In this document: one piece after another, positions 28,556-50,054 of the stretch | Layout of the letters: every line of letters starts with the position of its first letter | How positions within the stretch are numbered: the first letter of the stretch is position 1 | NCBI GenBank assembly: GCA_028289425.1 | Contig: JANQPL010000004.1 | Coordinates: 186,001-250,000, forward strand | Reading direction: 5' to 3' | DNA from: Alphaproteobacteria bacterium | Lineage (GTDB): Bacteria > Pseudomonadota > Alphaproteobacteria > JANQMY01 | Length of the DNA stretch: 64,000 nucleotides | Notes under the pieces: generated by a model | What the model saw: the letters and a program-made list of their open reading frames with translations, nothing else | The model's database searches: none | What the model was told of the DNA's origin: nothing | Made by a program: the position numbers and the translations under genes

Positions 28556-29764
28556 CTAGTCCGCCGCTAAACGGGGCTGAACCTTTTGCCCCGGTAAGAA
28601 TGAAACGAGCGGCGTGATCGCGATCCGCAGGTTTTGTTGTTGGACAGGGGAGCGGACGATGACACGGTTGTGGCGCCGGAACAGAACCTCCGGTTCTAAG
28701 CGCTGCAAGCGGTCTTCGTCATCCACGTGCCAGACATAGCCGTCCTTGGTAAGGGCGGAAGCGGGTATGTCCAAAGCAGACGCCACGGCAATCCCAAGGA
28801 ATTGAAGGGTGACCAGGTCGCCCCCAAGGACGGCGTTGGCTCCACTGTTTTCCACATCCAGAAAGACCCTGTACTGACGGGTCGTCTCGTCGAGAAAATC
28901 GCCCCCCCTGCGGATACGCGCTTCCGCAATGACGTCGCCGCCTTGAGTCAAAACTTTCGCTGTTTGTCCGGAAATTGGCTTTTTAAGGTGCGCCCATTCG
29001 GTCGGGCTGATTTCGGCGATCAGTTCAAAATGGGTGTTGTCGGAAAGAGCCACCAATTGATCGCCCACATTGACCGACTGGCCCGGGCTGACAAAACGCT
29101 CCGTCACAAAGGCGGCAAACGGCGCCGCAATGATTGTGTCCTCCAATTGACGCTTGGCCGCATCGACTTGTGCCTGGGCGGAAGCAACTGTGCTTTCTGC
29201 GATGGCTAATTGGGGCAGCTTGAGCGCCAAATCGTTGGGCGGCTTTATCCCATTGCGCTCGAAATCTGCGCGCGCCACATAGGCGGCATTCTTCGTGTGC
29301 CAAAGACCAAGGTCTGCTTGTTTTAGCGCTAATTCTGCGGCCGCAAGTTCTGCAACATACCGGCTGTTTTCGATTTCGATGAGCGGCGTTCCCACCTCGA
29401 CCTGTTCGCCTACCAAGGCGCCGGGGAGGACATTGTCCACACGGCCGGCAACCGGCGCGCTGAGCACGGCGGACCATTTTGGCCGGGTTTCGGCGAACGC
29501 GCGGATTTCGACAGTCTCGGGGGCGGCAACAACCTGCTCGATCGAAACTGGTTGCAGCGCCAGAGGCGTCGTCACTCCGGAGACGTCAACGGCATCTTCG
29601 GAGTAACTCAGAAAAGTGAGCACCATTCCAAGGGTTGCAAGGGAAAGCAGAATCCAGAACCACCGGTTTCTGGGCTTTTCGTGAGATTCGGGGCCTTCCT
29701 GACCGGGTTCTAACGGATTTTGCACCGGTGCGGCGGGTCTTGGATCTCTTGGATTGACGTTCAT
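28556..29764 (-). CDS. RND efflux periplasmic adaptor (membrane fusion protein)
   Basis: About 402 residues from ATG at 29764 (424 if the ATG at 29830 is used). One N-terminal membrane helix (NRWFWILLSLATLGMVLTFL), then the lipoyl-like half motif SAPVAGRVDNVLPGALVGEQVEVGTPLIEI, a helical hairpin (LAAAELALKQADLGL), the second lipoyl half (IIAAPFAAFVTERFVSPGQSVNVGDQL) and beta-barrel. Neither start has a clear ribosome binding site. The 29830 start is unusual: a TATAAT lies seven bases before it, so it would make a nearly leaderless transcript. Tightly coupled to the permease (three-base gap). Confidence 0.88.
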   Translation of the reverse strand: MNVNPRDPRPAAPVQNPLEPGQEGPESHEKPRNRWFWILLSLATLGMVLTFLSYSEDAVDVSGVTTPLALQPVSIEQVVAAPETVEIRAFAETRPKWSAVLSAPVAGRVDNVLPGALVGEQVEVGTPLIEIENSRYVAELAAAELALKQADLGLWHTKNAAYVARADFERNGIKPPNDLALKLPQLAIAESTVASAQAQVDAAKRQLEDTIIAAPFAAFVTERFVSPGQSVNVGDQLVALSDNTHFELIAEISPTEWAHLKKPISGQTAKVLTQGGDVIAEARIRRGGDFLDETTRQYRVFLDVENSGANAVLGGDLVTLQFLGIAVASALDIPASALTKDGYVWHVDDEDRLQRLEPEVLFRRHNRVIVRSPVQQQNLRIAITPLVSFLPGQKVQPRLAAD

Positions 29765-29823
29765 CGTTTTCAGGCCAAAAAGCTTGGATTTTCCAAAAAA
29801 GGTGGCGCGACACCCCGATTTAT

Positions 29824-29874
29824 GAGACATATGTGTATTATAACTGGAATCAAGATGTAAGACAACAATGTCTC
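29824..29874. promoter_or_regulatory. Divergent RND/TetR promoter with inverted GAGACAT/ATGTCTC
   Basis: GAGACAT (29824-29830) and ATGTCTC (29868-29874) are inverted copies 37 bases apart, each overlapping an ATG of a divergent reading frame. A TATAAT on the minus strand lies at 29837-29842. The region between divergent pump and TetR genes is only 37 bases, so the repressor must bind here; the arms are candidate half-sites. Confidence 0.5.
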
Positions 29875-30671: not shown

Positions 30672-30820
30672 GGATGTACCCCATGCACCCATCTTTGTTG
30701 GGCACATCGCCAGCCCACTCCCCCTCCCAACCACCCGCAAGGGTACGGTATCCGGGTGGTTGGGAGGGGGTGCGGGTGGCCGGGCAATCCAAGATCGGAT
30801 GTACCCCATGCACCCATCTT
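30672..30820. repeat. Composite repeat: two 24-base direct repeats around a long hairpin
   Basis: A perfect 24-base direct repeat beginning GGATGTACCCCATGCACCC occurs at 30672-30695 and 30797-30820. Between them an 18-base inverted repeat (CCCCCTCCCAACCACCCG at 30720-30737; its exact complement at 30753-30770) encloses a 15-base loop. The 442-base gap between the TetR and GST genes has no convincing gene. The arrangement suggests a mobile or amplified intergenic element (REP/MITE-like). Not recognised from a known family. Confidence 0.6.
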
Positions 30821-30900: not shown

Positions 30901-31596
30901 TTAGTTCCCAGATGAAGGACTGAACGTCTGAAAGTTCACCATCAGATCGTTTCGCTCGAGCCAGTCATACGCTTCTTGCTCTTTCGCCAAAACACGTTCG
31001 ACACTCGGCCGCTTCAAAACACGGTCATACATATTTGCAAATCGCGGGTAGGGGGTCAGGTCGAATGACGTGCCGTTCAAGCGAAACCATGCCCAAGACA
31101 AGTATGCATCAACTAACGACCACTGTTCGCCGAAGAACCAAGGTCCGTTTCCCAACCGGTCCTCGATCTGCCGAAAATCTTGGGCCAACCGTTCCTTCGC
31201 CATTTCACGAACCCGCTCCATGCCAGATGGCACGTCACAAAAAAACTGGGGCAGGCGAATATGGAACACATTCGGGTGGATGCTCGTAGAACACCAAATG
31301 ACGTCCGCGATGACCTTGGCATCTGTCTCGCTCTGCCCATCAAACGGCAGCAGCTTGGCTTCCGGAAAAACTTTTGCCAGGTAAATCATCATCGCCGACG
31401 ACTCGGTGATCGACACGCCGTTCACCACCATGGTCGGCACTTTGCCATTGGGATTCAGACTTAGATACTCCGGGGACTTGTTGTCACCGCGAACGTAGAC
31501 GACAAGCTCGGTGTCGTATTCTGCACGGGCCTCTTCGAGTCCGACCATTGGACCTCGAGAACAAGTCCCCGGATAATAGTAGAGAGAAATGTTCAT
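30901..31596 (-). CDS. Glutathione S-transferase family protein
   Basis: 231 residues. Thioredoxin-fold N-terminal domain starting ISLYYYPGTCSRGPMVGLEEA, with cysteine and serine at the glutathione-contact position as in beta-class bacterial enzymes, then NPNGKVPTMVVNGVSITESSAMMIYLAKVFPEA (cis-proline VP and ESxA motif) and a helical C-terminal domain with GPWFFGEQWSLVDAYLSWAWFR. Roles range from detoxification to dehalogenation or ether cleavage in catabolic clusters. First of three minus-strand genes read after it is the exported 88-residue protein upstream, so it may be co-transcribed. Confidence 0.9.
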   Translation of the reverse strand: MNISLYYYPGTCSRGPMVGLEEARAEYDTELVVYVRGDNKSPEYLSLNPNGKVPTMVVNGVSITESSAMMIYLAKVFPEAKLLPFDGQSETDAKVIADVIWCSTSIHPNVFHIRLPQFFCDVPSGMERVREMAKERLAQDFRQIEDRLGNGPWFFGEQWSLVDAYLSWAWFRLNGTSFDLTPYPRFANMYDRVLKRPSVERVLAKEQEAYDWLERNDLMVNFQTFSPSSGN

Positions 31597-33056: not shown

Positions 33057-35300
33057 TTAGAATCTATAGTCCACTTTGACGCCGAAAGTCCGCGGCTTGG
33101 TATAGGCCGTCGTCGCACTTTCACCAATAAAGCCTGGCGTAATGTAGATGTTGTTTCTTTCGACATCGTCCTCCAGGTTTGTCGCAAACCCAGTTATGGA
33201 AACCCCCGTGTCGCCAGCCAGATAGGTCACCGTGACATCGGTTTTCGTATTGGGCCCAACGCGATCAATGTTTGGGTCATTGTATTCGCGCAGGAACATT
33301 TCACTGTGCCACGTCGTGTTAACCGAAGCGATGACACTTCCTATGCTGCCGATGTCAAACCCATATTGCAGACCACCCGTAATTGTATGTGCCGCCACAT
33401 ATGGGATTTTGTTGCCCGACAGATTGGTTAGTCCGCCTACTGGACATCCCGGATCACTTGGATCGGCAGCGCCGGGCGTCGGAAAACGCGGGTCAAGATT
33501 ACAATACTCGTCGAACTCCGCGTTGAGATAGGAATAGCTGAAATTCGCCAATAGATCGGATGTCACCTCGTACTGGGTATCAAGCTCAACCCCCCAAAGT
33601 GTCGCCTTACCGGCATTTGTGGTGAACTGGCCGGGCGCACCGCCGATGAAAAGCAAAGTGGTGAGCTGCAAGTCGGAATAATCATAGTAGAACGCATCTA
33701 GATTTATTTGCGCACGACCATTAAAGGGATTTGACTTGAGACCGACTTCATAGGCGATGACGTTTTCTTCATCATACGGATCGCCATTCGACGTAATGTT
33801 AAAGCCACCGGCCTTATACCCGCTGGAGACATTGGCATAGGCAAGCGCATTGTCGGTGACATCATATTCCACGCCGCCTTTCCAGGTGACTTTGGAGAAT
33901 GTCTCCTCAATACCGTCAAGATCGGGGCGCGTCGGCAATCCGAAATTCAATGCGTTGAACAACGACCCCGTCTTCTTGTCCGCCGTATATCTGGCACCGC
34001 CGGTCAGACGAAGAAAGTCGGTGATAGAATAGGTTCCGGAAGCGAAACCAGCTACCGTGCGGCTCTCACCAAACTCGTCGAGCAAGAAGTCCGGCAGACT
34101 TATCATTCCTGGGCCAACGACGAAGCCGTTTAGCCGCACGCGCCTAAAGATAAAAGTATCTTCGCGAAAATAGTAAGCGCCTAGAATCCATTCCAGTGGA
34201 CCATCATTGTTCGATGACAGACGAAATTCGAAACTATGGGCGTCGTTTTCCTGCTCTTTATTGAAAATACTGACGTCGATGGGCGATCCATCAAAGTCCT
34301 GTTGCAGGTTGGTGTCTTGCCAAAGTCTGCCGCCCTGTATCCAAAGATCGACACCTTCGAATGACTTTTCGAATCTTACAAAGGTTGAGATTGTCTCCGT
34401 GTCATTAAAGGCTGTCGCGTCATTGTTGACAATGAGTGGATCCGTTGGATCCGGTGGCACAAAGCCCGTTATGAGCGCTTGTACGGGCGGCGGCCCTCCG
34501 AGAACACGCTCAAGGAAATGATAGGCAACGCCTGTGCCCTTGAGATTGCTATATGTGGCACTTGCCAGAAGCGACCAGTCCGGGCCGCCTTCGAAAAGGA
34601 CTTGCCCGCGCACCGTTAAGTCGCCATCCGTTCCGAAAGGATCATCATTGGCGGAAGAGTTAAAGACGTTTTCCACGTATCCTTCTTCTTCCGTTCGGAC
34701 GATTGAAAATCTTGTAGCGACTTTGTCACTGATCGGAATGTTCCCGACACCTCTGACTTCCCAAAGATTGCGTGATCCGTAACTTGCGCCGATTTGACCT
34801 TCATATTCGAAGACCGGTTCGTTCGCGATCACGTTGACCACACCGCCCGTGGCATTGCGGCCGTAAAGCGTTCCTTGCGGTCCGCGCAGAACCTCAATTC
34901 GGTTGACGTCAAAGAAGATCGCACTGCCGCCGGCGGGCCGGGGTATGTAGAAATTGTCGATGTAGAAGGCGACCCCCGGATCGGTAATGGACGACGTCCC
35001 TTGCAATCCGATGCCGCGCAGAGACACTTTAAAGCCGTCTTGTTCCTGCCCGACATGAAAGCCCGGAACCAGAGACTGCATGTTCGAAAGGTCGTCAATC
35101 CCCCTATTTTCCAGTGACTCCCCTGAAAATGCCGAAATGGCGAGTGGTGTATCTTGAAGACTGCTTTCGCGTTTTTCAGCGGTGACAATGATGTTGTCGA
35201 TACCAATTCCCCTGTCCGACCCATCATCGTCCTGAGCCATTGGGACCCCAGGCAACAAAGCGACCGCAATCGCCAGCAAACTTGCTGTCGTAATCCGCAT
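33057..35300 (-). CDS. TonB-dependent receptor 2
   Basis: 747 residues. Signal peptide ending in VPMAQ, then IDNIIVTAEKRESSLQDTPLAISAFSGESL (TonB box and plug start), LRGPQGTLYGRNATGGVVNV in the plug, and a C-terminal barrel ending TFGVKVDYRF with terminal F. The same receptor group as receptors 1 and 3. A strong GntR-type palindrome lies 70 bases before the start, shared with the monooxygenase gene, so it probably imports the substrate or a related compound of the Baeyer-Villiger/meta-cleavage module. Ligand unknown. Confidence 0.93.
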   Translation of the reverse strand: MRITTASLLAIAVALLPGVPMAQDDDGSDRGIGIDNIIVTAEKRESSLQDTPLAISAFSGESLENRGIDDLSNMQSLVPGFHVGQEQDGFKVSLRGIGLQGTSSITDPGVAFYIDNFYIPRPAGGSAIFFDVNRIEVLRGPQGTLYGRNATGGVVNVIANEPVFEYEGQIGASYGSRNLWEVRGVGNIPISDKVATRFSIVRTEEEGYVENVFNSSANDDPFGTDGDLTVRGQVLFEGGPDWSLLASATYSNLKGTGVAYHFLERVLGGPPPVQALITGFVPPDPTDPLIVNNDATAFNDTETISTFVRFEKSFEGVDLWIQGGRLWQDTNLQQDFDGSPIDVSIFNKEQENDAHSFEFRLSSNNDGPLEWILGAYYFREDTFIFRRVRLNGFVVGPGMISLPDFLLDEFGESRTVAGFASGTYSITDFLRLTGGARYTADKKTGSLFNALNFGLPTRPDLDGIEETFSKVTWKGGVEYDVTDNALAYANVSSGYKAGGFNITSNGDPYDEENVIAYEVGLKSNPFNGRAQINLDAFYYDYSDLQLTTLLFIGGAPGQFTTNAGKATLWGVELDTQYEVTSDLLANFSYSYLNAEFDEYCNLDPRFPTPGAADPSDPGCPVGGLTNLSGNKIPYVAAHTITGGLQYGFDIGSIGSVIASVNTTWHSEMFLREYNDPNIDRVGPNTKTDVTVTYLAGDTGVSITGFATNLEDDVERNNIYITPGFIGESATTAYTKPRTFGVKVDYRF

Positions 35301-35369: not shown

Positions 35370-35389
35370 TTAGCATGCTTGCATGTAAG
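35370..35389. promoter_or_regulatory. GntR-type operator 1 (receptor 2 / GlcG divergent promoter)
   Basis: TTAGCATGCTTGCATGTAAG with palindromic core CATGC-TT-GCATG. It differs by one base in 20 from the site at 36999. It lies between the divergent receptor 2 gene and the GlcG-like gene. Confidence 0.7.
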
Positions 35390-35581
35390 ATACAAAATTT
35401 GCGTCTCGCCGCCGGGAACGGCAATTCTCGAATTTTGAGAATTTCGGTTCCCACGGACCCGCGGACCAATTTCCAAAGAGTGAAAGTGAGGTGTAAATAA
35501 CACACCGCACGAAGCTGCTGTACGCCGGCCTGTGGGGTCTAGAAACTGGAAGAATCCTGGCGGCCGAGGCTACCCCACAAA

Positions 35582-35992
35582 GTGAAATACGAACTCGACT
35601 TCGACACCGCTCAGATCGCCCAACAACGCGCATTGACGGAAGCAAAACGGCACGGCGTATCCATTGCCCTAGCGATTGTTGATAATAGGGGGGTGCTTTC
35701 CAGCTTCTTTCGAATGCCGGAAAGTTTCCTTGCATCCGTAGACTACGCCCGGTGGAAAGCCTGGACGGCGGCAAGCTTCAAAATGCCCAGCGGAGATTTC
35801 GGTCAGCTTGTCTCCGGATTTGATTCCCTTACGCGCGACGGGCTTCTCGCGCATCCAAAGGTTACCGCGCTGCCGGGGGGGTTTCCCATCAAGAAAGACG
35901 GACATCTCATCGGTGCAATTGGCGTTTCAGGTGGCAGCGGCGAACAAGATGACGCCATCGCTAAAGCAGCACTTACAGCTTTTGAGGCGTGA
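35582..35992 (+). CDS. GlcG/HbpS-family heme-binding-like protein
   Basis: 136 residues of the GlcG/HbpS (DUF336) family: LTEAKRHGVSIALAIVDNRG near the start, LPGGFPIKKDGHLIGAIGVSGGSGEQDDAIAKAAL near the end, which is the family signature. Members occur in many catabolic operons; some bind heme or sense oxidative stress, most are uncharacterised. GTG start at 35582 without a strong ribosome binding site. It is divergent from TonB receptor 2 and may share the GntR operator at 35370. The neighbouring SDR is convergent, 15 bases away. Confidence 0.85.
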   Translation: MKYELDFDTAQIAQQRALTEAKRHGVSIALAIVDNRGVLSSFFRMPESFLASVDYARWKAWTAASFKMPSGDFGQLVSGFDSLTRDGLLAHPKVTALPGGFPIKKDGHLIGAIGVSGGSGEQDDAIAKAALTAFEA

Positions 35993-36763: not shown

Positions 36764-37154
36764 CGGTCTCCCTAGAGCGCGATCAGGTTAAGTGGGTGAG
36801 GCGCCAAAGGCGCCGAACGTTAACCGTCCGTTCGCGCGACCAACGGTGAATCGTAGGCATGTTCATGTTTCCGTGAAAAATGATCATGCCCTAGTTGATG
36901 GTACGCCGCTTCATTCCAGTGATACGAAGCGTCGGCCGGCAGGCAAGCCATTTCAGCCACAGGCAAATCATAACACGTGAAAAACATCCGGATCTTTATT
37001 AGCATGCTTGCATGTTAGTTGTAAATGAGTAGAATAAATCAAGCCGCAAGACGGTTGGCCGTGCAATTGCCGCTGCGTGTCACGCGTCCAGTACAGGTTT
37101 TGTTTTGGGGGTGTCCGGCTCAATTGCATCGCACTGACAAGTGGGAGGATCAAA
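36764..37154. other. Divergent intergenic region before the monooxygenase
   Basis: 391 bases with no convincing gene. It contains a small hairpin GGCGCC-AAA-GGCGCC (36800-36814), the GntR-type operator at 36999-37018, and the ribosome binding site GGGAGG at 37143-37148. Confidence 0.5.
36999..37018. promoter_or_regulatory. GntR-type operator 2 (monooxygenase promoter)
   Basis: TTAGCATGCTTGCATGTTAG, 19 of 20 identical to the site at 35370, 137 bases before the monooxygenase ATG. Core CATGC-TT-GCATG is a perfect palindrome. Confidence 0.7.
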
Positions 37155-38981
37155 ATGACGGATGGGGAACGGACATCATCGGCGTTCGATTCACAGGCGC
37201 TTCATCAAAAATATGCCGCCGAAAAAAAGAAACGTCTTCGTGGCGATGGTGAAGGACAATATATCGACGCATCGGGTGAGTTTGAGGCGTTCAGCCAAGA
37301 TCCGTTTATCAAAGTCCCACTGCAAAGGGATTCAGTCTCAAAAGATATTGATGTGGCGGTAATTGGCGGCGGATTTGGCGGCTTGATCACGGCCATCAAA
37401 TTGCGGAAAGCAGGCATCAATTCGTTCGAGATCATCGATCAAGCCGGAGACTTCGGTGGCACCTGGTACTACAATCGGTATCCGGGCATTCGATGTGATA
37501 TCGAATCGCTCATCTACCTTCCCTACTTGGAAGAGTTGGGCATCAAGCCAAAAGAGCATTACGCCCACGGCGCTGAAATATATGCACACTGCCAGATGCT
37601 CGCACGTCATTTTGATCTCTATCGGCAAGCATTGCTGGAGACCAAGGTCACACGCATCTCATGGGACGAAACCTTATCGCGGTGGATCATAAACACGAAC
37701 CGTAATGACGAAATCCGCGCACGTTTTATCACGGTCAGCCAGGGCCCCTTATCCAAGGTGAAACTCCCCGGCATTCCGGGCATAAACAAGTTCATAGGAA
37801 AAATGTTTCACTCCAGCCGGTGGGATTTCGACTACACGGGGGGTGATTCAACCGGCGGTCTCGTTAACCTTGGAACAAAAAAGGTTGGGATCATCGGGAC
37901 GGGAGCAACGGCCGTCCAAATTATTCCAATTGCCGCGGACTACGCAAAACATCTTTATGTATTCCAGCGCACGCCGACAGCAGTAGATGTCCGCGACAAC
38001 AAGCCGATCGATCCGGAATGGTTCGCCGAACTGCCCAACGGGTGGCAGAAGAAGCGAATGGACAATTTCCTCGCAATACTCTCGAAAGTCTACCAAGAAA
38101 ACGATCAGGTTCATGATCAATGGACGGACTATTGGAAGCGCGTTGTCGCTTTGGGGATGGACCTTAAAAGCAAAGGATCGGACGAAGGTCCGCTTGCGAT
38201 CATGCAGCGCATTGACTACGCAAAAATGGAGGAACTCCGTACAAGAATCGATGAAACTGTAAATGACAGGGAAACCGCCGCATCGCTGAAGCCATGGTAC
38301 AATTATCTTTGCAAGCGGCCGCTGTTCAGCGACAACTACCTTCAAGCTTTTAACAAACCCAATGTGACGTTAGTCGATACGGACGGAGTCGGTGTTTCTG
38401 AGATCACCGAAAAAGGCGTTGTTGCGAACGGAAAAGAATTTGACATCGACTGTTTGATTTTTGCGACAGGTTTTGACGTGGCCGCTGCCGCTTACAAGGT
38501 CGGAGGCTACGATGTGATCGGCCGAAATGGACTGAGCATTGACGACAAATGGTCAAATAACTTTCAGTCCGTTCACGGCACCCAGCTCAATGGATTTCCC
38601 AATTTCCACATTGTCGGGGGCTTCTATCAAGGCACCACTGCATTCAACTTTATGCATGCCCTCGACATTCAAGCCGAGCATGCTGTCGACCTGATTGCCA
38701 AATGCGTCACAGGCAATATAGCGAGTATGGAAGTGACGCAAGCGGCCGAAGAAAAATGGATCGCCATGATGGAAGAACACCACAATGCGGCGCTCAATCA
38801 ATATTTTGAAGACTGTACGCCCGGCTTTTTGAACAATGAAGGTGATACGGAGTCGAAACCATCATTTCTTGGCGGAAATTTTGGCGGAGGTACAATCGAA
38901 TATGAACGCATTATTCGAAATTGGCGACAAGAGTGCATCGGCACCGACACGACAACAACGCAGGTAAATGAAAGGCGGTAG
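37155..38981 (+). CDS. Baeyer-Villiger monooxygenase (class I, FAD/NADPH)
   Basis: 608 residues from ATG at 37155, which has GGGAGG six bases upstream; the frame extends further upstream without support. An N-terminal extension (about 60 residues) precedes the FAD-binding VAVIGGGFGGLITAIKL. The Baeyer-Villiger fingerprint FxGxxxHxxxW[PD] is exact: FIGKMFHSSRWD. The NADPH-binding motif VGIIGTGATAVQIIP follows, then YVFQRTPTA and IDCLIFATGFD. Length and extension resemble enzymes acting on large cyclic or aryl ketones (cyclopentadecanone- or hydroxyacetophenone-type). It inserts oxygen next to a ketone to give an ester or lactone. The substrate is unknown; the adjoining meta-cleavage genes suggest an aryl ketone or a ring-bearing side chain. 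Confidence 0.92.
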   Translation: MTDGERTSSAFDSQALHQKYAAEKKKRLRGDGEGQYIDASGEFEAFSQDPFIKVPLQRDSVSKDIDVAVIGGGFGGLITAIKLRKAGINSFEIIDQAGDFGGTWYYNRYPGIRCDIESLIYLPYLEELGIKPKEHYAHGAEIYAHCQMLARHFDLYRQALLETKVTRISWDETLSRWIINTNRNDEIRARFITVSQGPLSKVKLPGIPGINKFIGKMFHSSRWDFDYTGGDSTGGLVNLGTKKVGIIGTGATAVQIIPIAADYAKHLYVFQRTPTAVDVRDNKPIDPEWFAELPNGWQKKRMDNFLAILSKVYQENDQVHDQWTDYWKRVVALGMDLKSKGSDEGPLAIMQRIDYAKMEELRTRIDETVNDRETAASLKPWYNYLCKRPLFSDNYLQAFNKPNVTLVDTDGVGVSEITEKGVVANGKEFDIDCLIFATGFDVAAAAYKVGGYDVIGRNGLSIDDKWSNNFQSVHGTQLNGFPNFHIVGGFYQGTTAFNFMHALDIQAEHAVDLIAKCVTGNIASMEVTQAAEEKWIAMMEEHHNAALNQYFEDCTPGFLNNEGDTESKPSFLGGNFGGGTIEYERIIRNWRQECIGTDTTTTQVNERR

Positions 38982-39011
38982 CCTTATAAACAAAGGCCCA
39001 GTCTCATCTAG

Positions 39012-39644
39012 CTAAAGGCCAGAAAGAACCGCACTAGCAATCGACGCAAAATGAGATTCAGCTTCCAGACGCGCACGGTTTGAGTCTTGCTTTGCCACTG
39101 CATCAATGATGCGATCATGCTCGCGAATGGCGTCGGCCATAATCGCGCCAAATCCAACAGAATGGGTAATGAAGAAGTCCGCCATGTTAAAGTTGTTGCG
39201 TTGTTTCCGGTCGAGCAACGGGGAATGGGCCATAAGATGTAAAGCGCGATGAAAATCCCGATTTAAGCGAACATATTCCCGTACGGAAGGGTTTTTGGAC
39301 TCCGATAGCACAACGATGCGCCGTTGAGCTGTCTGTAAGCGCTCAATGTCTTCTTCTGTCCGACGCTTAGCCGCAAGCTCAGCCAAGAGTCCTTCAATCA
39401 ACTGAAACAGTTGGAAAAAATCTGCTATTTCATCTCGGGATGGGCTGATGACTTCACAACCGACTTGCGGGACAATGCTGACAAAGCCCTCAACACTGAG
39501 CCGGTTCAAAGCGGACATGATCGGTTGACGGCTAGCGCCCGTTTCCGCGCTTAGTTCTTTCACCAACATCCGGTCGCCAAAACCGTAGTGAGCGTTCACC
39601 AGCCGGTCGACGACAAAGTCATAAACTTCGTTGCTTTTGCTCAT
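39012..39644 (-). CDS. GntR-family (FadR/FCD subfamily) regulator
   Basis: 210 residues. N-terminal winged helix (VKELSAETGASRQPIMSALNRLSVEGFVSIVPQVGCEV) and an all-helical FCD-type C-terminal domain (FFQLFQLIEGLLAELAAKRRT; REYVRLNRDFHRALHLMAHSP; IREHDRIIDAVAKQDSNRARLEAESHFASIA). It diverges from the hydrolase gene, and a CTAACATGCTAGC half-palindrome lies 17 bases before its ATG. It is the best candidate for the protein that binds the four CATGC-type sites of this region. Confidence 0.9.
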   Translation of the reverse strand: MSKSNEVYDFVVDRLVNAHYGFGDRMLVKELSAETGASRQPIMSALNRLSVEGFVSIVPQVGCEVISPSRDEIADFFQLFQLIEGLLAELAAKRRTEEDIERLQTAQRRIVVLSESKNPSVREYVRLNRDFHRALHLMAHSPLLDRKQRNNFNMADFFITHSVGFGAIMADAIREHDRIIDAVAKQDSNRARLEAESHFASIASAVLSGL

Positions 39645-39660
39645 ACGACATTTCGGTCAT

Positions 39661-39673
39661 CTAACATGCTAGC
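39661..39673. promoter_or_regulatory. GntR-type operator 3 (GntR gene promoter)
   Basis: CTAACATGCTAGC shares the ACATGCTWG core with the stronger sites at 35370 and 36999, but only one half is conserved. It lies 17 bases upstream of the GntR start, so autoregulation is plausible. Confidence 0.5.
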
Positions 39674-39787
39674 TTTTTTAAATGGTTTTTCGCCCGGATC
39701 AAGCGCGCCTCGCTAAGTAGTTTTATTTGTGGCCAAAAGCCAGCACTTGCTTCCCAAGCAGGCTAGAAAGTTCTTGAACATCCATAC

Positions 39788-39806
39788 TTACATGCTAGTA
39801 TACACG
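39788..39806. promoter_or_regulatory. GntR-type operator 4 (hydrolase operon promoter)
   Basis: TTACATGCTAGTATACACG shares TACATGCTAG with the other sites. It lies 22 bases before the hydrolase ATG. Confidence 0.5.
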
Positions 39807-39827
39807 CAACTCTGTTGGAGGACGTTC

Positions 39828-40688
39828 ATGGCGTTCATTTGGCCGGAAATCGCAAACGGGACGGTGAAACTGGGATTTGTCGATGCCGGTGGTGTTCGCA
39901 CACGCTATGTGGAAGCCGGCGATCTTACCTCTGACGAAGCCGTTATCTTTGTTCACGGCACCGGCGGACATCTCGAAGCCTTCACGCGCAACTTAATTCC
40001 GCATGCAGAACGTTACCGCACAATTGCACTGGATATGATTGGGCACGGTTTTTCAGAGAAACCGGATCACGATTACGAGATAAAGCATTATGTCCAGCAT
40101 CTGGCAGATTTCTGTGACGCTGTCGGTATCAAACGCGCCCACGTACATGGAGAATCCCTTGGAGGCTGGATCGTTGCTCAATTCGCAATCGATCATCCCG
40201 ACCGGGTCGGCACCCTAACGCTCAATACCGCAGGTGGGCTGAATACCGATCCGAAGGTGATGCAACGCGTTTACGAAATCACAATGAAGGCCGTGGCTGA
40301 GGCAAGCCCAAAAACCGTTCGAGCACGGCTGGAATGGTTGATGAATGATCCGGCACGCGTAACAGACGATCTCGTTGAGCTTCGCTACCGAATCTACACG
40401 CAACCGGGTTTCGTGAAATCCATGGAGCATATCCTGTGTTTGCAGCATATGGAAATTCGTATGCGGAACGTCCTCACCGAGGAAACACTTTCAACAATCA
40501 AAGCGCCAACACTTGTTGTCTGGACGGACCACGACCCAACGGCTCCAACCGCAACCGGTCAGCGTTTCGTCGATGCAATTCCAAATTCACGCATGGTTGT
40601 AATGAGCGACTGTGCGCACTGGCCTCAATGGGAGAAAGCAGACGAGTTCAATGCACTACATCTCAGCTTTCTCGCGGAACACGCATAA
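39828..40688 (+). CDS. Meta-cleavage product hydrolase (MhpC-like alpha/beta hydrolase)
   Basis: 286 residues. Oxyanion region VIFVHGTGGHLEAF, nucleophile elbow HGESLGGW, aspartate in VVWTDHDPTAP and the catalytic histidine in SDCAHWPQWEKADEFNALHLSFL, a stretch typical of MhpC/BphD-type C-C hydrolases. It cleaves the ring-opened 6-oxo-dienoate into a carboxylic acid and a 2-hydroxy-dienoate. ATG at 39828 has GGAGG six bases upstream; a start at 39729 would run through the operator. First gene of the plus-strand trio hydrolase, class III dioxygenase, VOC dioxygenase. Confidence 0.88.
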   Translation: MAFIWPEIANGTVKLGFVDAGGVRTRYVEAGDLTSDEAVIFVHGTGGHLEAFTRNLIPHAERYRTIALDMIGHGFSEKPDHDYEIKHYVQHLADFCDAVGIKRAHVHGESLGGWIVAQFAIDHPDRVGTLTLNTAGGLNTDPKVMQRVYEITMKAVAEASPKTVRARLEWLMNDPARVTDDLVELRYRIYTQPGFVKSMEHILCLQHMEIRMRNVLTEETLSTIKAPTLVVWTDHDPTAPTATGQRFVDAIPNSRMVVMSDCAHWPQWEKADEFNALHLSFLAEHA

Positions 40689-40714
40689 GGCATTGCCAGT
40701 GAGGAACAATTCTT

Positions 40715-41665
40715 ATGCCCATTAAACTGATTTGCGCTTCGCATACACCGTTGATGGACCATGTTGCTACCGATCCGGACGTCGATAGAGAAGTGCGGGG
40801 CCATTTTGACGACCTCGCAAAATTAGTTGACCGTTATGATCCCGAACTGGTCGTGATTTTTGCCCCGGACCACTTCAAAGGTTTTTTCTACAATATGCTG
40901 CCGCCATTCACCGTTGGCGTGAGAGCAACAGCGATCGGCGACTATGATATTGGGAGCGGGGACTTCAATGTCCCGGAAGACATTGCAATCGATTGTGTGC
41001 GCGCCATTCACAATGCGGAAGTTGACATCGGCCTTTCGTACCAAATGCAAGCGGACCACGGGTTTGCGCAGCCACTGGTTCTCCTTGGGAAAGCAGTGGA
41101 CGATTACCCGGTGCTTCCGATCCACATAAACTGTGCGGGGCCGCCTCTGCCCCCTTTTAAGCGTGTGCGAAAACTTGGCGAAGCCGTTGGCCGATGGGCG
41201 GGCCGACAAGAGAAGCGCATTTTGATCATCGGATCTGGCGGACTTTCACACGACCCACCTATCCCGTCGCTCAAGACGGCCCCACCCGAAGTGGCGGAAA
41301 GACTGATTGCGGGCAACCGGCCCACATTGGCGGAGCGGCGCGCACGGGAGCAGCAGAACTATGAAACCGCGAGAGCCCTTGCGCGCGGAGAAGGGAAGGC
41401 CTTGCCCTTATCTCCAGCTTGGGACAAGGAGTTTATGAACCAAATGGCGCGCGGGAACCTGTCTTTTTTGGACTCCATGACCGAGGATGAGATCACGTCG
41501 GTCGCCGGATGCGGTGGAAATGAAGTGCGGACCTGGGTCGCGGGATATGCCGCCCTTTCAGCCGCGGGCCCCTATCGGTCTAAAACGGTTTTCTACCGAG
41601 ATATCGCAGAATGGAATGCTGGAATGGGCATCGCTTTCGCTGATCCAGTTGCTCCCACGACTTGA
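40715..41665 (+). CDS. mhpB: 2,3-dihydroxyphenylpropionate 1,2-dioxygenase-like (MhpB, class III extradiol)
   Basis: 316 residues, the length of MhpB. It matches the MhpB pattern end to end: FAPDHFKGFFYNMLPPFTVG, SYQMQADHGFAQPL (catalytic histidine), RILIIGSGGLSHDPP (second catalytic histidine), WVAGYAALSAAGPY and the C-terminal IAEWNAGMGIAF. It uses Fe(II) to cleave 3-substituted catechols next to the hydroxyl pair. The flavin hydroxylase MhpA that normally makes the catechol is not in the window. It follows the hydrolase by 26 bases with GAGGA upstream. The symbol is by strong resemblance, and the actual side chain of the substrate may differ. Confidence 0.92.
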   Translation: MPIKLICASHTPLMDHVATDPDVDREVRGHFDDLAKLVDRYDPELVVIFAPDHFKGFFYNMLPPFTVGVRATAIGDYDIGSGDFNVPEDIAIDCVRAIHNAEVDIGLSYQMQADHGFAQPLVLLGKAVDDYPVLPIHINCAGPPLPPFKRVRKLGEAVGRWAGRQEKRILIIGSGGLSHDPPIPSLKTAPPEVAERLIAGNRPTLAERRAREQQNYETARALARGEGKALPLSPAWDKEFMNQMARGNLSFLDSMTEDEITSVAGCGGNEVRTWVAGYAALSAAGPYRSKTVFYRDIAEWNAGMGIAFADPVAPTT

Positions 41666-41735
41666 CCGAATGTCCAGTCTTTAACCCAAAGCGCGCGGGC
41701 GTCTAAAGCAGCAGTGTAAGATACGAGGTGAATAA

Positions 41736-42659
41736 ATGGTTCAATCACTCCAAAGATTGGCACTCGGCATACCTGACCTCCAGGTGGGTGCTGAGTTCTA
41801 CACCACCTTCGGCATGAATATGTACGAAGGCAAGGATATGCTTGCCTTTAGATGTGACAATCGAAAACACGATGAAATTGTCCTTATAGAAACTGGACAG
41901 TCTCGCAAATTCCATCACATTGCTTTTGCCACGGATGCGCCCGACCTTGAAGACCTGAAGGGCAGGCTTGGGAGCCGCGGTGTACAGCTTTTGGACCCTC
42001 CGTATGAGGATCAAGAAGACGGAATTTGGTTCCGAGATCCGGATGGCAACCTCGTCAATGTTCATATTGGACCAGCAGCCTCAATTGAGGCCGAGACGCC
42101 CCCTGTCATCAATACGCCGGGAATCACAAAGCGAGTGAACGAGCGCGGGTGCCCCCCCTTCGACATGAATCCCCGCCCCCGTCGTTTCGGCCATATGATT
42201 TTGTTTACGCCGGATGTTCCAGCTCAAACCAAGTTTTATATCGACGTTGTGGGCATGAAGCTGAGCGACTGGATTGCCGACGGTTACGCTGCCTTTCTTC
42301 GAACCGCCGGAGACAGCGACCACCATGTGCTAGGATTCTTGAACGCATCGACACCGGGATTTCACCATGCCAGTTTTGAAATGAGCTCGATCGATGAAAC
42401 TGAAATTGCCGCGAAGCGATTGCTCGGCAATGGTTTCAAACACGCATGGGGTCCGGGGCGCCACGGTGTCGGGTCCAACTACTTTCACTACTTCCGAGAC
42501 CCTTGGAACGGGATGGCGGAGTATTTCTTTGACATTGATTACCTGACGGAAGATTTTGATTGGGAACCGACCGAGTGGACGAAACAGTCGGGGATGTTCT
42601 TGTGGGCCGCAGACGGCCCTCCGCCACCCGACTTCGGAACGAACTACGAGGCGGAATAG
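41736..42659 (+). CDS. Extradiol ring-cleavage dioxygenase, VOC superfamily (type I)
   Basis: 307 residues with two vicinal-oxygen-chelate modules (about 5-110 and 148-265). The metal ligands of the catalytic second module are visible: H in FGHMILFTPD (about 153), H in TPGFHHASFEM (about 210-215) and E in NGMAEYFFDIDYL (about 265), the 2-His-1-Glu set of catechol 2,3-dioxygenases. It is unrelated in fold to the MhpB-like protein encoded just before it, so the operon carries two ring-cleaving enzymes of different origin. GAGGTG lies before the ATG. The 70-base gap to the previous gene still fits one operon. Confidence 0.88.
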   Translation: MVQSLQRLALGIPDLQVGAEFYTTFGMNMYEGKDMLAFRCDNRKHDEIVLIETGQSRKFHHIAFATDAPDLEDLKGRLGSRGVQLLDPPYEDQEDGIWFRDPDGNLVNVHIGPAASIEAETPPVINTPGITKRVNERGCPPFDMNPRPRRFGHMILFTPDVPAQTKFYIDVVGMKLSDWIADGYAAFLRTAGDSDHHVLGFLNASTPGFHHASFEMSSIDETEIAAKRLLGNGFKHAWGPGRHGVGSNYFHYFRDPWNGMAEYFFDIDYLTEDFDWEPTEWTKQSGMFLWAADGPPPPDFGTNYEAE

Positions 42660-42700: not shown

Positions 42701-43477
42701 CTAAGTAAAGGTCGTTTGTACCTTTCCAAGACCCTCGACCCTCAACTCGTATGTCTTGCCCGCCTCAACATTGACGAATGGGCCCAGGGCACCCGACAGC
42801 ACGACATCTCCAGCCTTCAAGGGATTTCCGAACTTCGCCATATTTCCCGCAAGCCATTGGGTCGCAATGATCGGGCTCCCCAAACAAGCGGCGCCTTGGC
42901 CCGACGAAACCATTTCGCCGTTTTTTTCGAGCACCATCTTGCAGCCGACAAGGTCGAGTTGCACCAATTTCACCCGCTCCTCGCTCAGCACATATTTCCC
43001 AGATGATGCATTGTCCGCAATCGTATCGAATATGCTTATATTCCAGTCCTTAATCCGACTACCGACAATCTCAAAAGCCGCAACAGCATAGTCAATCGAG
43101 TTTTCTATCTCTTGTTGCGACGGCTCTTCCGACAAAATGTCTTTGCTCAAAACAAACGCAATCTCACCTTCGATCCGCGGCTGACAGATGTCGGCTGCGG
43201 CGGTTTCCTCAAAATTAGCAACCTCCATATCCTGAAAGAGAATACCGGAATCGGGCTGATCAACCCCAAGCTGTTCCTGAACGGCCTTCGACGTCAGACC
43301 AATTTTGCGACCGGCAATTTTGCGGCCCTCTTCAACCCATATTCGCGTGTTTAAGTCTTGAATGGCATAGGCCGTCTCGACGCTTGGATCGTCGAATTGG
43401 TCACGCAGGGGCGAGATGGGAGGCGCCCCACCGTAAACCGATCGCAATGCCCGTGCAGCTTCCTCAGTTTTGTTCAT
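42701..43477 (-). CDS. mhpD: 2-keto-4-pentenoate hydratase (MhpD-like)
   Basis: 258 residues, family length. Motifs: GRKIAGRKIGLTSKAVQEQLGVDQPDSG near the start (lysine and metal region), RIEGEIAFVLSKDI (acidic metal ligands) and GPFVNVEAGKTYELRVEGLGKV at the end. It adds water to 2-hydroxypenta-2,4-dienoate to give 4-hydroxy-2-oxovalerate, the step after the C-C hydrolase. Last gene of the minus-strand trio dehydrogenase-aldolase-hydratase, 32 bases after the aldolase; convergent with the VOC dioxygenase. Confidence 0.93.
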   Translation of the reverse strand: MNKTEEAARALRSVYGGAPPISPLRDQFDDPSVETAYAIQDLNTRIWVEEGRKIAGRKIGLTSKAVQEQLGVDQPDSGILFQDMEVANFEETAAADICQPRIEGEIAFVLSKDILSEEPSQQEIENSIDYAVAAFEIVGSRIKDWNISIFDTIADNASSGKYVLSEERVKLVQLDLVGCKMVLEKNGEMVSSGQGAACLGSPIIATQWLAGNMAKFGNPLKAGDVVLSGALGPFVNVEAGKTYELRVEGLGKVQTTFT

Positions 43478-43509: not shown

Positions 43510-44547
43510 TTAGTCTGATTTTTCCTCTTTGGCCTTCAGAAGGTCCAGCGCGACATCGACAATCATGTCTTCTTGTCCGCCAACCATGCCGCGCCGGCCC
43601 AGTTCAACCAGGATTTCCCTCGTATCGAGGCCGTAGTCCTCCGATGCCTTTTCCGAATGCCTCAAAAAGGAGGAGTAGACACCTGCGTATCCCAAAGAGA
43701 GGGTTTCCCGGTCCACACGCACGGGGCGGTCTTGCAGCGGACGAACGAGGGTCTCTGCTGCATCCATGAGTGCAAACAGGTCACACCCATGTTGCCACCC
43801 TTTTCGGTCCGCTGCGGCGACAAAAATCTCCAAGGGCGCATTGCCGGCGCCAGCGCCCATGCCGGCGAGGGAGGCATCTACGCGGCGTGCGCCGTATTGG
43901 ACGGCAACGATCGAATTCGCAACTCCGAGCGAAAGGTTATGGTGAGCATGGACGCCCCGTTCGGTCTCCGGCTTCAAAACACCGTCGTAGGCATTAAGCC
44001 GCTCGGCATAACCATCCATATCCAGCGCGCCGCCACTATCCGTCACATAAACACACTGCGCTCCATAGGACTCCATCAGCTTTGCCTGTTCGGCCAGCTT
44101 TTCGGGCTCGATCATATGGCTCATCATCAAAAAACCGATCGTGTCCATCCCCAAATCACGCGCCATGCCGATATGCTGTTTTGCCACATCCGCTTCCGTG
44201 CAATGTGTTGCAATTCGAACAGAGCTCACCCCAAGCCGATGGGCTTGTCTTAAGTCCTCAACCGTACCGATCCCTGGGAGCAACAGAGTCGTAATGGTCG
44301 CGTTGGCAACAACGTCAGCGACGGCTTCGATCCATTCCCAATCCGTATGGGCTCCAAATCCGTAGTTGAAGCTGGAACCATTCAGTCCATCGCCATGCGC
44401 AACTTCGATTGCATCAACGCCAGCTTCATCAAGTGCTAAAGCGATATCTCGCACCGCATTGATGCCATACTGATGTCGAATGGCATGCATGCCATCTCTC
44501 AAAGTGACGTCCTGAATATAGATCGGTTCGCTTTCAGGCTTGAACAT
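43510..44547 (-). CDS. mhpE: 4-hydroxy-2-oxovalerate aldolase (MhpE-like)
   Basis: 345 residues from ATG at 44547; the upstream dehydrogenase stop TGA overlaps it by one base (TGATG). Signature: [19 protein letters not shown] (metal aspartate and arginine), VEVAHGDGL-like [31 protein letters not shown] and [13 protein letters not shown] (metal histidines). The C-terminal communication domain ([23 protein letters not shown]) contacts the acylating aldehyde dehydrogenase. It splits the substrate to pyruvate and an aldehyde that is channelled to the partner. The operon organisation with the partner fits this. Confidence 0.95.
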
Positions 44548-45515
44548 CACAATGCCGGATCCGCTTCGCATCGCGTCCGCGCCAATTTTTCCCCGGTCGC
44601 AAGCGCCGCCGATGTCATGATGTCTAAGTTTCCCGCATAAGCCGGCAGGTAGTCAGCCGCGCCTTCCACTTCCAGAAAAACGCTTGTCTTAATGCCCTCA
44701 TATTGGCCGACCCCAGGGATGTGGACAGGGTTATTGGACCCGAACCGTTCAAACTGCACTTTCTGCTTGAGGCGATAACCGGGAACATACGCCCGCACTT
44801 GTTCCACCATATCCACGATAGATTTTTCAATGGCCGCTTCGTCCGCACCACCAGACAGTGTGAAAATTGTATCGCGCATGATCATCGGAGGATCAGCCGG
44901 GTTAAGAACGATAATGGCCTTGCCTGTTGCGGCGCCTCCAACAATTTCGAGCCCCCTCGCCGTCGTTTCGGTGAATTCATCAATATTGGCGCGTGTCCCA
45001 GGACCGGCAGATTTCGACGCGATTGATGCAACGATCTCCGCATAGTGCACGTCTGAAACGGAAGACACTGCGGCAACGATCGGGATGGTTGCCTGCCCAC
45101 CACAGGTCACCATATTCACATTGGGCGCGTTGAGGTGTTCGTCCCCGTTTATGACAGGAACCACGTAAGGTCCAATCGCTGCGGGGGTTAGGTCGACCAT
45201 CTGCTTGCCGGCAGATCCGACAACGTCACTATGTTTTTTGTGCGCGGCTGCCGACGTGGCATCGAAAACGATGTCTATTTGCGGCCACGCTTCCATAGAC
45301 CGCAAGCCTTCGATGCCATTGTGCGTCGTGCTAACACCCAATTCTTCGGCGCGAGCCAACCCATCAGAAGTCGGGTCAATGCCAACCAGGGCAGCGACTT
45401 CAAGATGTTCGGAATGTCTGACAATTTTGATCATCAAGTCGGTCCCAATGTTTCCTGAACCGATGATCGCCACTTTGCTTTTCTTGAACACCAATCTCGA
45501 ACACCCGTTGATCAT
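44547..45515 (-). CDS. mhpF: Acylating acetaldehyde dehydrogenase (MhpF-like)
   Basis: 322 residues. NAD-binding start [17 protein letters not shown], the catalytic cysteine in [35 protein letters not shown] and [13 protein letters not shown] are all typical. It oxidises the aldehyde released by the aldolase to an acyl-CoA. The first codons are uncertain: the protein may begin at GTG eight residues in, closer to the usual [11 protein letters not shown] start. First gene of the minus-strand trio, divergent from the IclR regulator, so its promoter lies in the 45516-45594 gap. Confidence 0.95.
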
Positions 45516-45564
45516 TTCTGAGTGTCAAGCGTAGTCAATTCATTTGACCCGGCAAATCCGAGAG

Positions 45565-45599
45565 CGCATATTATTCTCATTTTTTGAGAACAATATGCG
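45565..45599. promoter_or_regulatory. Large palindrome overlapping the IclR start codon
   Basis: Arms CGCATATTATTCTCA (45565-45579) and TGAGAACAATATGCG (45585-45599) match at 14 of 15 positions around TTTTT. The right arm contains the ATG at 45595. It could be the IclR operator for autoregulation and for the divergent dehydrogenase-aldolase-hydratase operon, or an RNA hairpin hiding the start codon. Confidence 0.6.
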
Positions 45600-46362
45600 T
45601 ACCGGAAAAAACGAAAAAAACGTCCCAACATCAGACGCGCTGCTTGTTTTTCAAGAGGTTCTCTCTCTCCAAGGGGATCCGTTTCGCCCAACAGAAGCAA
45701 GCCGCCGGCTGGGCATACCCATACCCAATATTTACCGGCACATCGGTGTTTTGGTCAGTAGCGGTTGGCTCATCCGTACACGCAGAAGCCATTATCTGCC
45801 CCATCCGACATTTTTAAAGCTTCTGGAACCTTTCAAGATTCAATCAGTCCTCAGATTGATTATTCGACCAATACTCGAACGGGCCGGAAAGGAAGTGGAA
45901 GCGGCCTTCCACTTCGGCATGCTCGAGTCGGATATGGTGACCTACATCGCCAAAATCGATCATCACAATATGGGACTGTTCACGGAAGAGAACAGCCAAC
46001 TCGAAGCCTATTGCTCAGCCATTGGAAAATGCTTGCTGGCTTCTTTGTCGTCAGATGAATTAGACGCGTACCTGTCTGCTTCAGAATTCCCGAAGCTTAC
46101 TGACAACACAATTGTCGATCCGAAAGAGATCCGACGCGAGATCAGCAAAACCAAGAAACGCGGATACGGTATCGACAACCGAGAAATCCGAGAGGACTTG
46201 GTATGCATCGCGGTTCCGGTGAGCCAGGGGGATGGCTCGGTCATCGGTGCGGTTTCAGCTGCGTCGACCCGTGCCGACCTAACCGGCGCGCCTAAGAAAA
46301 AAACCATATCGACACTTCGACAAGTCAAAGCGGAAATCGCTAAGGTGCTTCAACCCCAATAG
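45595..46362 (+). CDS. IclR-family transcriptional regulator
   Basis: About 255 residues from ATG at 45595. N-terminal winged helix (ALLVFQEVLSLQGDPFRPTEASRRLGIPIPNIYRHIGVLVSSGWL) and C-terminal ligand domain with EAAFHFGMLESDMVTYIAKI, LEAYCSAIGKCLLASLSSDEL, REISKTKKRGYGIDNREIREDLVCIAVPV. IclR proteins often regulate aromatic catabolism (MhpR, PcaR). The upstream TTG at 45544 is rejected. The starting ATG lies inside a large palindrome. Divergent from the mhpF-like gene, which it probably controls. Confidence 0.9.
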   Translation: MRTGKNEKNVPTSDALLVFQEVLSLQGDPFRPTEASRRLGIPIPNIYRHIGVLVSSGWLIRTRRSHYLPHPTFLKLLEPFKIQSVLRLIIRPILERAGKEVEAAFHFGMLESDMVTYIAKIDHHNMGLFTEENSQLEAYCSAIGKCLLASLSSDELDAYLSASEFPKLTDNTIVDPKEIRREISKTKKRGYGIDNREIREDLVCIAVPVSQGDGSVIGAVSAASTRADLTGAPKKKTISTLRQVKAEIAKVLQPQ

Positions 46363-49234: not shown

Positions 49235-50054
49235 ATGGGGAAACTCGATGGACGCACGGCCCTTGTAACCGGAGGCGGTCGTGGTATCGGTCGGTCCGTT
49301 TGCTATAGGCTGGCTGAAGAAGGGGCACATGTGGTCGTTAATGACCTCGACCCTGTTCCAGCCAACGAAACCGTTGAAAAGATTTGCTCAGTTGGCGGAC
49401 ACGCCATCGCATGTCCGGGTAGCGTGACAGACGCCGACTTCGCTTCCCGATTTGTCAACTGCGCGATCGATAGCTTTGGGGATATCCATGTCATCATCAA
49501 CAACGCCGGATACACTTGGGATTCAGTTATTCAAAAGATGACGGATGATCAGTTTGACGCAATGCTCGACGTTCACTTGAAGGCACCTTGGCGCATACTT
49601 AAGGAAGCTGCTGAATTCATTCGCCTGAAATCAAAGGAAGAAGCGCTCACAGGACAAGAAACATTTCGAAAGGTCGTGAATGTCTCGTCGATTGCCGGTT
49701 CACGCGGCAACGCCGGTCAAACCAACTTACGCGTCGGCGAAAGCGGGAATTATTGGCCTCACGATGGCTCTCGCAAAGGAGTGGGGGCGCTATAAAGTCA
49801 ACGTCAACACGGTGGCCTTCGGATACATCGCAACCAGATTGACCGAAGCCACAGACGAGAAGAAAGAGATTGAAATCGAAGGCCGCCGGATCGGCGTTGG
49901 CGTCCCGTCTGGAAATGTTGCCGCCCTAGCGCGGGCCGTCCCGCTTGGCCGCGGCGGAACAACCGACGAGGCAGCCGGATCGATTATCCTGTTTTGCTTG
50001 CCTGAGGCGGACTACGTATCGGGGCCATTGTTGGAGGTAACGGGCGGTCTGTGA
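49235..50054 (+). pseudogene. Short-chain dehydrogenase interrupted by a one-base frameshift
   Basis: Starts with GTGGGRGIGRSV Rossmann motif, NNAGYTWDS and VNVSSIAGSRGNAGQTN in one frame (49235 onwards); the continuation YASAKAGIIGLTMALAKEWG through VSGPLLEVTGGL lies in the next frame to 50054. The change occurs at the extra T at 49727/49728 in AACTTACGCG; removing it restores the Y of the catalytic YxxxK exactly. Otherwise the whole sequence is intact (about 272 residues), with no other decay. It is either a recent mutation or a sequencing error. The product would be a 3-hydroxyacyl-CoA dehydrogenase-type SDR. AGGAG lies eight bases before the ATG. Confidence 0.85.

Follow-up and report, generated by a model that had tools for sequence, protein, structure and literature searches.

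A predicted IclR operator in a palindrome that includes the start codon of the regulator gene

The core of a long palindrome at the start of an IclR-family regulator gene is very probably the operator of the adjacent IclR protein, which would thereby regulate its own gene. The palindrome was found in the window, the whole 64-kb stretch of DNA that was analysed, beside a divergent mhpF-E-D operon. The initial annotation had proposed that a regulator bound there, or an RNA hairpin folding there, controls both the regulator gene and mhpF-E-D. As a prediction, the operator part of this proposal stands: the dyad recurs together with the divergent operon (including in a held-out locus, L115), it keeps a fixed spacing to the promoter, and a second site is present in the cluster. 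The part that concerns RNA folding and translation did not hold up.

The palindrome and the neighbouring genes

The following features surround the palindrome.

45565-45599, no strand: full 35-bp palindrome; outer arms 45565-45573 and 45591-45599, with 8 of 9 positions paired
45574-45590, no strand: predicted core operator dyad TTCTCA-N5-TGAGAA, 17 bp; matrix match at 45573-45591, score 20.24
45595-46362, plus strand: IclR-family regulator gene, 255 aa (Pfam IclR_C)
44547-45515, minus strand: mhpF-type acylating acetaldehyde dehydrogenase (TIGR03215, 1.7e-138; AcetDehyd-dimer, 3e-59)
43510-44571, minus strand: mhpE-type 4-hydroxy-2-oxovalerate aldolase (HMGL-like, 1.3e-60; DmpG_comm, 2.7e-31)
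42701-43477, minus strand: mhpD-type hydratase with the FAA_hydrolase fold (PF01557, 5.6e-13)

The geometry is as first described. The left arm, CGCATATTATTCTCA (45565-45579), and the right arm, TGAGAACAATATGCG (45585-45599), pair at 14 of 15 positions around a 5-base TTTTT spacer. The ATG at 45595-45597 falls within the right arm, in frame with the gene that ends at 46362, and the centre of the palindrome is 13 bases 5' of it. Palindromes spanning a start codon had also been called uncommon. For the IclR family this fails: according to the available text of PMC8222616, the centres of sites in this family lie most often at -22 from the gene start, and -3 to +1 forms a further prominent peak. 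A site at the start codon therefore follows a known trend.

Chance occurrence was judged by counting palindromes with arms of 15 bases, at least 14 pairs and a loop of at most 12. The 64-kb window holds two at that threshold, and at least one was present in 6 of 100 dinucleotide-shuffled windows (mean 0.07). When a local region of 360 bp was shuffled, a palindrome of equal quality appeared in 2 of 3000 trials, which places the observed one above chance. In a scored palindrome search it ranks second in the window. The strongest palindrome, at 30720-30770, is G+C-rich, with 19 of 20 positions paired and a loop of 11, and is located between the open reading frames 28556-29830 and 30901-31596.

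Only the inner 17 bp (45574-45590) recur in relatives, and the start codon lies outside this recurring part. No outer-arm extension comparable to that of the window was found by hand count in the two nearest homologues, L073 and L074. A given site would show pairing at 8 of 9 outer positions with a probability of roughly 1 in 10,000 (hand arithmetic, assuming equal base frequencies). The extension may possibly reflect extra contacts made by a tetramer, or a coincidence of the -10 box with the ATG region.

The C-terminal effector-binding domain of the family is present in the regulator (PF01614 IclR_C, 5.3e-33, 114.5 bits against a cut-off of 24). Its N-terminus scores below the cut-offs of two models, PF09339 HTH_IclR (19.9 bits, cut-off 22) and PF12840 (23.7 bits, cut-off 27), and this region aligns with the homologues. 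The closest NCBIfam model is TIGR02431 (PcaR/PcaU/PobR), at 105.3 bits and thus below its cut-off of 284.75. For mhpF, a GTG at 45491 fits the start in relatives, as read by eye, better than the ATG at 45515.

The stretch at 37077-42659, beside the mhp genes, carries genes for a monooxygenase, an HsaD-like hydrolase, and LigB-type and glyoxalase-fold ring-cleavage dioxygenases. Their predicted products point to a cluster for ring degradation in which extradiol dioxygenases of two kinds occur. Elsewhere in the window, two overlapping frames look like a short-chain dehydrogenase gene split by a frameshift: 49235-49795 matches the front part of models for this family and 49680-50054 the back part.

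Recurrence of the dyad in homologues

Homologues of the regulator were gathered from searches of relatives, of the class, family and order, and of plasmids. Loci without a tblastn match at E<=1e-14 were dropped, leaving 61, and merging of near-duplicates gave 49 representatives: the window, 36 strong homologues (95 bits or more) and a more distant set of 12. Eight of the ten plasmid records at E<=1e-20 were fetched, the other two coming from strains or species already included. Two plasmid homologues, L114 and L115, were fetched after the matrix had been built and served as held-out cases. The nearest homologues are L073 (64% identical) and L074 (56%). A search of genome contigs gave one distant homologue, which lacks the dyad, and none was found in the viral contigs searched. 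A divergent hydratase, dehydrogenase or aldolase gene is present in the fetched locus of 26 of the 36 strong homologues.

Recurrence was measured in two ways. The fixed pattern consisted of the window's own half-sites, with p-values obtained against shuffles of each gene's upstream region. With the window excluded, it reached p<=0.01 in 12 of the 36 strong homologues and p<=0.05 in 19, a weaker signal than that of the matrix; two of the 12 distant IclR controls also reached p<=0.01. The matrix is symmetric, has 19 positions, and was derived from the 26 homologues chosen for their divergent partner genes, again excluding the window. Three of its 26 sites (L048, L064, L070) were picked by eye. 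In a leave-one-out procedure the same site was found again as the best match at p<=0.05 in 25 of 26 cases, L077 being the exception (p 0.12). Neither the leave-one-out nor the pattern p-values are independent, since the sequences are related.

Two sites stand out when the 64-kb window is scanned with the matrix: 45573-45591 (20.24) and 35424-35442 (20.20). The third-best match scores 11.9, and the best score in 40 shuffled windows was 18.0. The held-out locus L115, on plasmid pANTQ-1, has divergent dehydrogenase and aldolase genes and carries a site (score 15.4, p 0.003). In the other, L114 from Cupriavidus, no such divergent genes were found and the matrix scan finds no site. Similarly, of the ten strong homologues whose locus has no divergent partner, seven lack the dyad and three have it (L043, L036 and L041, p 0.003 each).

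The distant controls show that the matrix has false or unexplained matches, because some of these genes match: 2 of 12 at p<=0.01 and 3 of 12 at p<=0.05, scoring 9.2-12.1 where the window site scores 20.2. The three (L006, L022 and L013) are IclR genes outside the clade, 26% identical, and one of them, L006, has a perfect TCTCA-N5-TGAGA upstream. Either chance or a wider use of the motif would account for these weaker matches.

Promoter and start codon

A promoter for the regulator gene can be placed on the same stretch of DNA.

45544-45549, plus strand: probable -35 box TTGACC of the IclR gene (consensus scan, 9 of 12 over both boxes)
45567-45572, plus strand: probable -10 box CATATT, inside the left outer arm, after a 17-base spacer

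By a rule of thumb applied to these predicted boxes, transcription would start near 45579-45581, in the middle of the dyad. The nearest homologue, L073, has CATAAT at the position that matches the window's -10 box (read by eye). A near subclade in the tree comprises the window, L073, L074, L048, L054, L055 and L067. In all seven, TTGAC occurs exactly 31 bases 5' of the first base of the 15-bp dyad; at that distance it is absent from the other 20 of the 27 members. Similarity continues 3' of the -35 box as a TTGACNCNNCAA-like stretch (45544-45558 in the window; also L073, L074, L048, L054 and L055, by eye); this stretch may correspond to an additional contact or to the divergent promoter.

The start codon is less constant in position. 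Candidate starts were defined as those upstream of the aligned part of the protein and within 70 bases of the dyad. Twelve of the 27 members, the window included, have a single candidate, and the rest have several. Relative to the dyad the single candidates lie at +9 (L044, L045), +17 (L002, L037, L071, L072, L077), +20 (window), +24 (L070), +25 (L059, L060) and +35 (L074). Because the TTGAC spacing is fixed in the near subclade while the position of the start codon varies, the dyad appears to be coupled to the promoter instead of the codon.

In some members the half-site itself resembles a translation signal. The right half-site holds the only candidate start in L043, L044 and L045 (the last on pCAR3, with GTG), and in L046, L040 and L057 the half-site RTGAGA provides one of several candidates. 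In L059, L060, L061 and L033 the half-site ends in GGGAG, which is Shine-Dalgarno-like. It is conceivable, as a rather speculative reading of these sequences, that one element in this IclR clade serves as operator, transcription start and part of the translation signal. In several relatives the RTGAGA half-site could then double as the start codon of a message that is probably leaderless, and the GGGAG end may act as the Shine-Dalgarno sequence in the four loci named. Where a start signal lies inside a half-site, operator and start could not evolve apart. The extended arms in the window would add a hairpin that silences any read-through transcript.

Second site and extent of the predicted regulon

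The other high-scoring match lies between two divergent genes, within the cluster.

35424-35442, no strand: second predicted operator, ATTCTCGAATTTTGAGAAT, in a divergent intergenic region (matrix score 20.20)
33057-35300, minus strand: TonB-dependent receptor gene beside the second site (TonB_dep_Rec_b-barrel, 6.7e-35; Plug, 9.7e-16)
35582-35992, plus strand: small HbpS-like gene beside the second site (PF03928, 4.1e-34)

A counterpart, ATTCCCATTATTCGAGAAC, was found in G683, the genome of the 64% identical homologue L073 (L095, 19484-19502, score 16.2); it too is located between HbpS-like and TonB-receptor genes. Further sites occur in wider flanks of other loci: L097 has them upstream of an HbpS-like gene and of a flavin monooxygenase gene, and L102 between a gene for an XylR/DmpR-type regulator and a ferredoxin-reductase-like gene. 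In L098 an additional site (14.0) lies 3' of iclR; the stretches scanned of L093/L094, L096, L099, L100 and L101 showed no second site above 11.1.

A large regulon elsewhere in the genome was considered and rejected, as relaxed patterns are not in excess over controls. In the window's own genome the relaxed motif has 7 matches against 7 in the control, two of the seven being the sites at 45573-45591 and 35424-35442, and at 2 mismatches there are 102 against 89, again no excess. The genomes of five relatives together gave 25 against 23. Each of four further one-mismatch sites (L080-L083) falls within a mechanically called open reading frame of 150 aa or more; in these loci the matrix finds no site above 12.5.

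Another palindrome, TTACATGCAAGCATGCTAA, and a one-mismatch copy of it are present at 35370-35388 and 36999-37017; a flavin monooxygenase gene and the TonB-receptor gene lie downstream, one each. At up to 3 mismatches these are the only two places in the whole genome (control 0). Similar elements were seen by eye in L095 and L097. A second regulator of the cluster probably uses this palindrome as its operator.

Proposed mechanism and alternatives

An IclR dimer (or tetramer) would bind 45574-45590 and cover the transcription start of its own gene, resulting in autorepression. From the same site it would also regulate the divergent mhpF-E-D genes. The centre of the site is 67-91 bp upstream of the mhpF start, depending on whether ATG 45515 or GTG 45491 is used. 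Since the site lies outside the predicted mhpF promoter, inducer-dependent activation would be more likely than a steric block. Through the second copy at 35424-35442, the TonB receptor and the small gene divergent from it would belong to the same regulon and respond to the same signal; the inducer is presumably an aromatic or meta-cleavage compound. Operator, promoter and short leader are packed together, and the position of the start codon in the outer right arm would be a largely accidental result of this packing. According to the available text of PMC8222616, autoregulation combined with control of one or two neighbouring operons is the general habit of IclR proteins, and the control proposed here agrees with it.

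A variant of the operator reading is that the protein represses both iclR and mhpF-E-D until an inducer releases it. IclR proteins of aromatic catabolism can repress, an example in the available text of PMC13273656 being PheR of Sphingobium. With its centre 44 bases upstream of the -35 box predicted for mhpF, the site is beyond the range of a simple steric block, although this argument is limited by the mhpF promoter being a consensus match only. Double repression is a possible variant, though not the favoured one.

A competing explanation for the palindrome as a whole is translational control by an RNA hairpin in which the ribosome-binding region and the start codon of iclR are masked. If the whole palindrome were transcribed, the 35-mer would fold at -15.8 kcal/mol (z -8.7, with 0 of 200 shuffles as stable), and the outer arms do pair at 8 of 9 positions beyond the recurring core. 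However, the predicted -10 box lies in the left arm, which should thus belong to the promoter and be missing from the main transcript. The 61-mer that begins at 45580 folds no better than shuffled sequences (171 of 200 as stable, z +0.9). What relatives conserve is a specific sequence instead of a long stem, and the position of candidate start codons differs among them. Finally, an Rfam search of 45000-46000 returned one microRNA match, which is not credible (E 0.79; 20.9 bits against a gathering score of 100). On promoter position, folding, start-codon variation and Rfam, the hairpin was rejected as the main mechanism, and we regard it as quite improbable.

The dyad could instead be the operator of a regulator other than the adjacent IclR protein. 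The TTACATGCAAGCATGCTAA palindrome suggests that at least one more regulator acts in the cluster, and binding of the IclR protein at this site is a prediction. Yet the dyad accompanies this IclR clade across many genomes, beside its gene, which makes a different regulator a similarly poor prospect. Even less credible is a chance palindrome without function. Palindromes of equal quality do turn up somewhere in a few shuffled windows, as counted above, but the rarity among local shuffles and the recurrence of the core, in homologues and within the cluster, led to rejection of a chance origin.

If the preferred reading is correct, that the core is the operator of the adjacent IclR protein, it supplies a candidate operator for an IclR clade tied to meta-cleavage operons, mainly in alphaproteobacteria, and adds a half-site variant to the recognition code of the family. 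Uptake, through the TonB receptor, and catabolism would be joined in one predicted regulon. The most striking feature of the site, a start codon inside a palindrome, would be its incidental part.

Comparison with known systems

Full-text searches of the literature, which included half-site strings, found no description of the motif among the matches listed. Group 1 sites of the IclR family are given in the available text of PMC8222616 as GKTYCRYW3-4RYGRAMC, with four subgroups in the main text (TGT, GTT, WTT and NGT). The nearest is WTT-11-AAW, which has the same half-site layout (WTTYCRY-W3-RYGRAAW, against TTCTCAY-N3-RTGAGAA here) and is also alike in its A/T-rich centre, its position near the gene start and its aromatic-catabolism regulons. 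The clade differs in the third base of the half-site, which is C and not T, and this places it outside the four main-text subgroups. C has a frequency of 0.88 at this position in the clade matrix (pseudocounts included) and is also found in the window.

In the clade matrix the three central bases are preferentially preceded by C/T and followed by A/G. In the window, TCAT-TTT-TTGA fits YCRY-W3-RYGR in the left half and centre, whereas the right half starts with T instead of R; the right half-site begins TT, where the clade has RT.

The PcaR/PcaU/PobR regulators, whose model is the best NCBIfam match (TIGR02431), share the N5 spacing between 5-base half-sites. The protein falls below the cut-off of that model, as noted above, and its predicted half-site is TCTCA, against the GTNCG listed for them in PMC8222616. 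MhpR of E. coli is likewise an IclR-type regulator of mhp genes, but its operator, reported in the same article as GGTGCACCTGGTGCACA, is unrelated in sequence to TTCTCA-N5-TGAGAA.

PheR of Sphingobium SHPJ-2 is an IclR-family regulator of aromatic catabolism in a sphingomonad, with effects on TonB functions, and its footprint spans a transcription start, as is predicted here. It acts on the phnA1 promoter, and neither the footprint nor the core GCAACG, as given in the available text of PMC13273656, contains TCTCA-N5-TGAGA.

Further parallels are found on three plasmids: pCAR3 of Novosphingobium KA1, pSWIT02 of R. wittichii RW1 and pANTQ-1 of Sphingobium AntQ-1. Each carries a dyad at the start of an IclR gene whose product is 35-41% identical, together with divergent dehydrogenase and aldolase genes, joined by a hydratase gene in pCAR3 and pSWIT02. 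In pCAR3 the right half-site itself contains the annotated GTG start.
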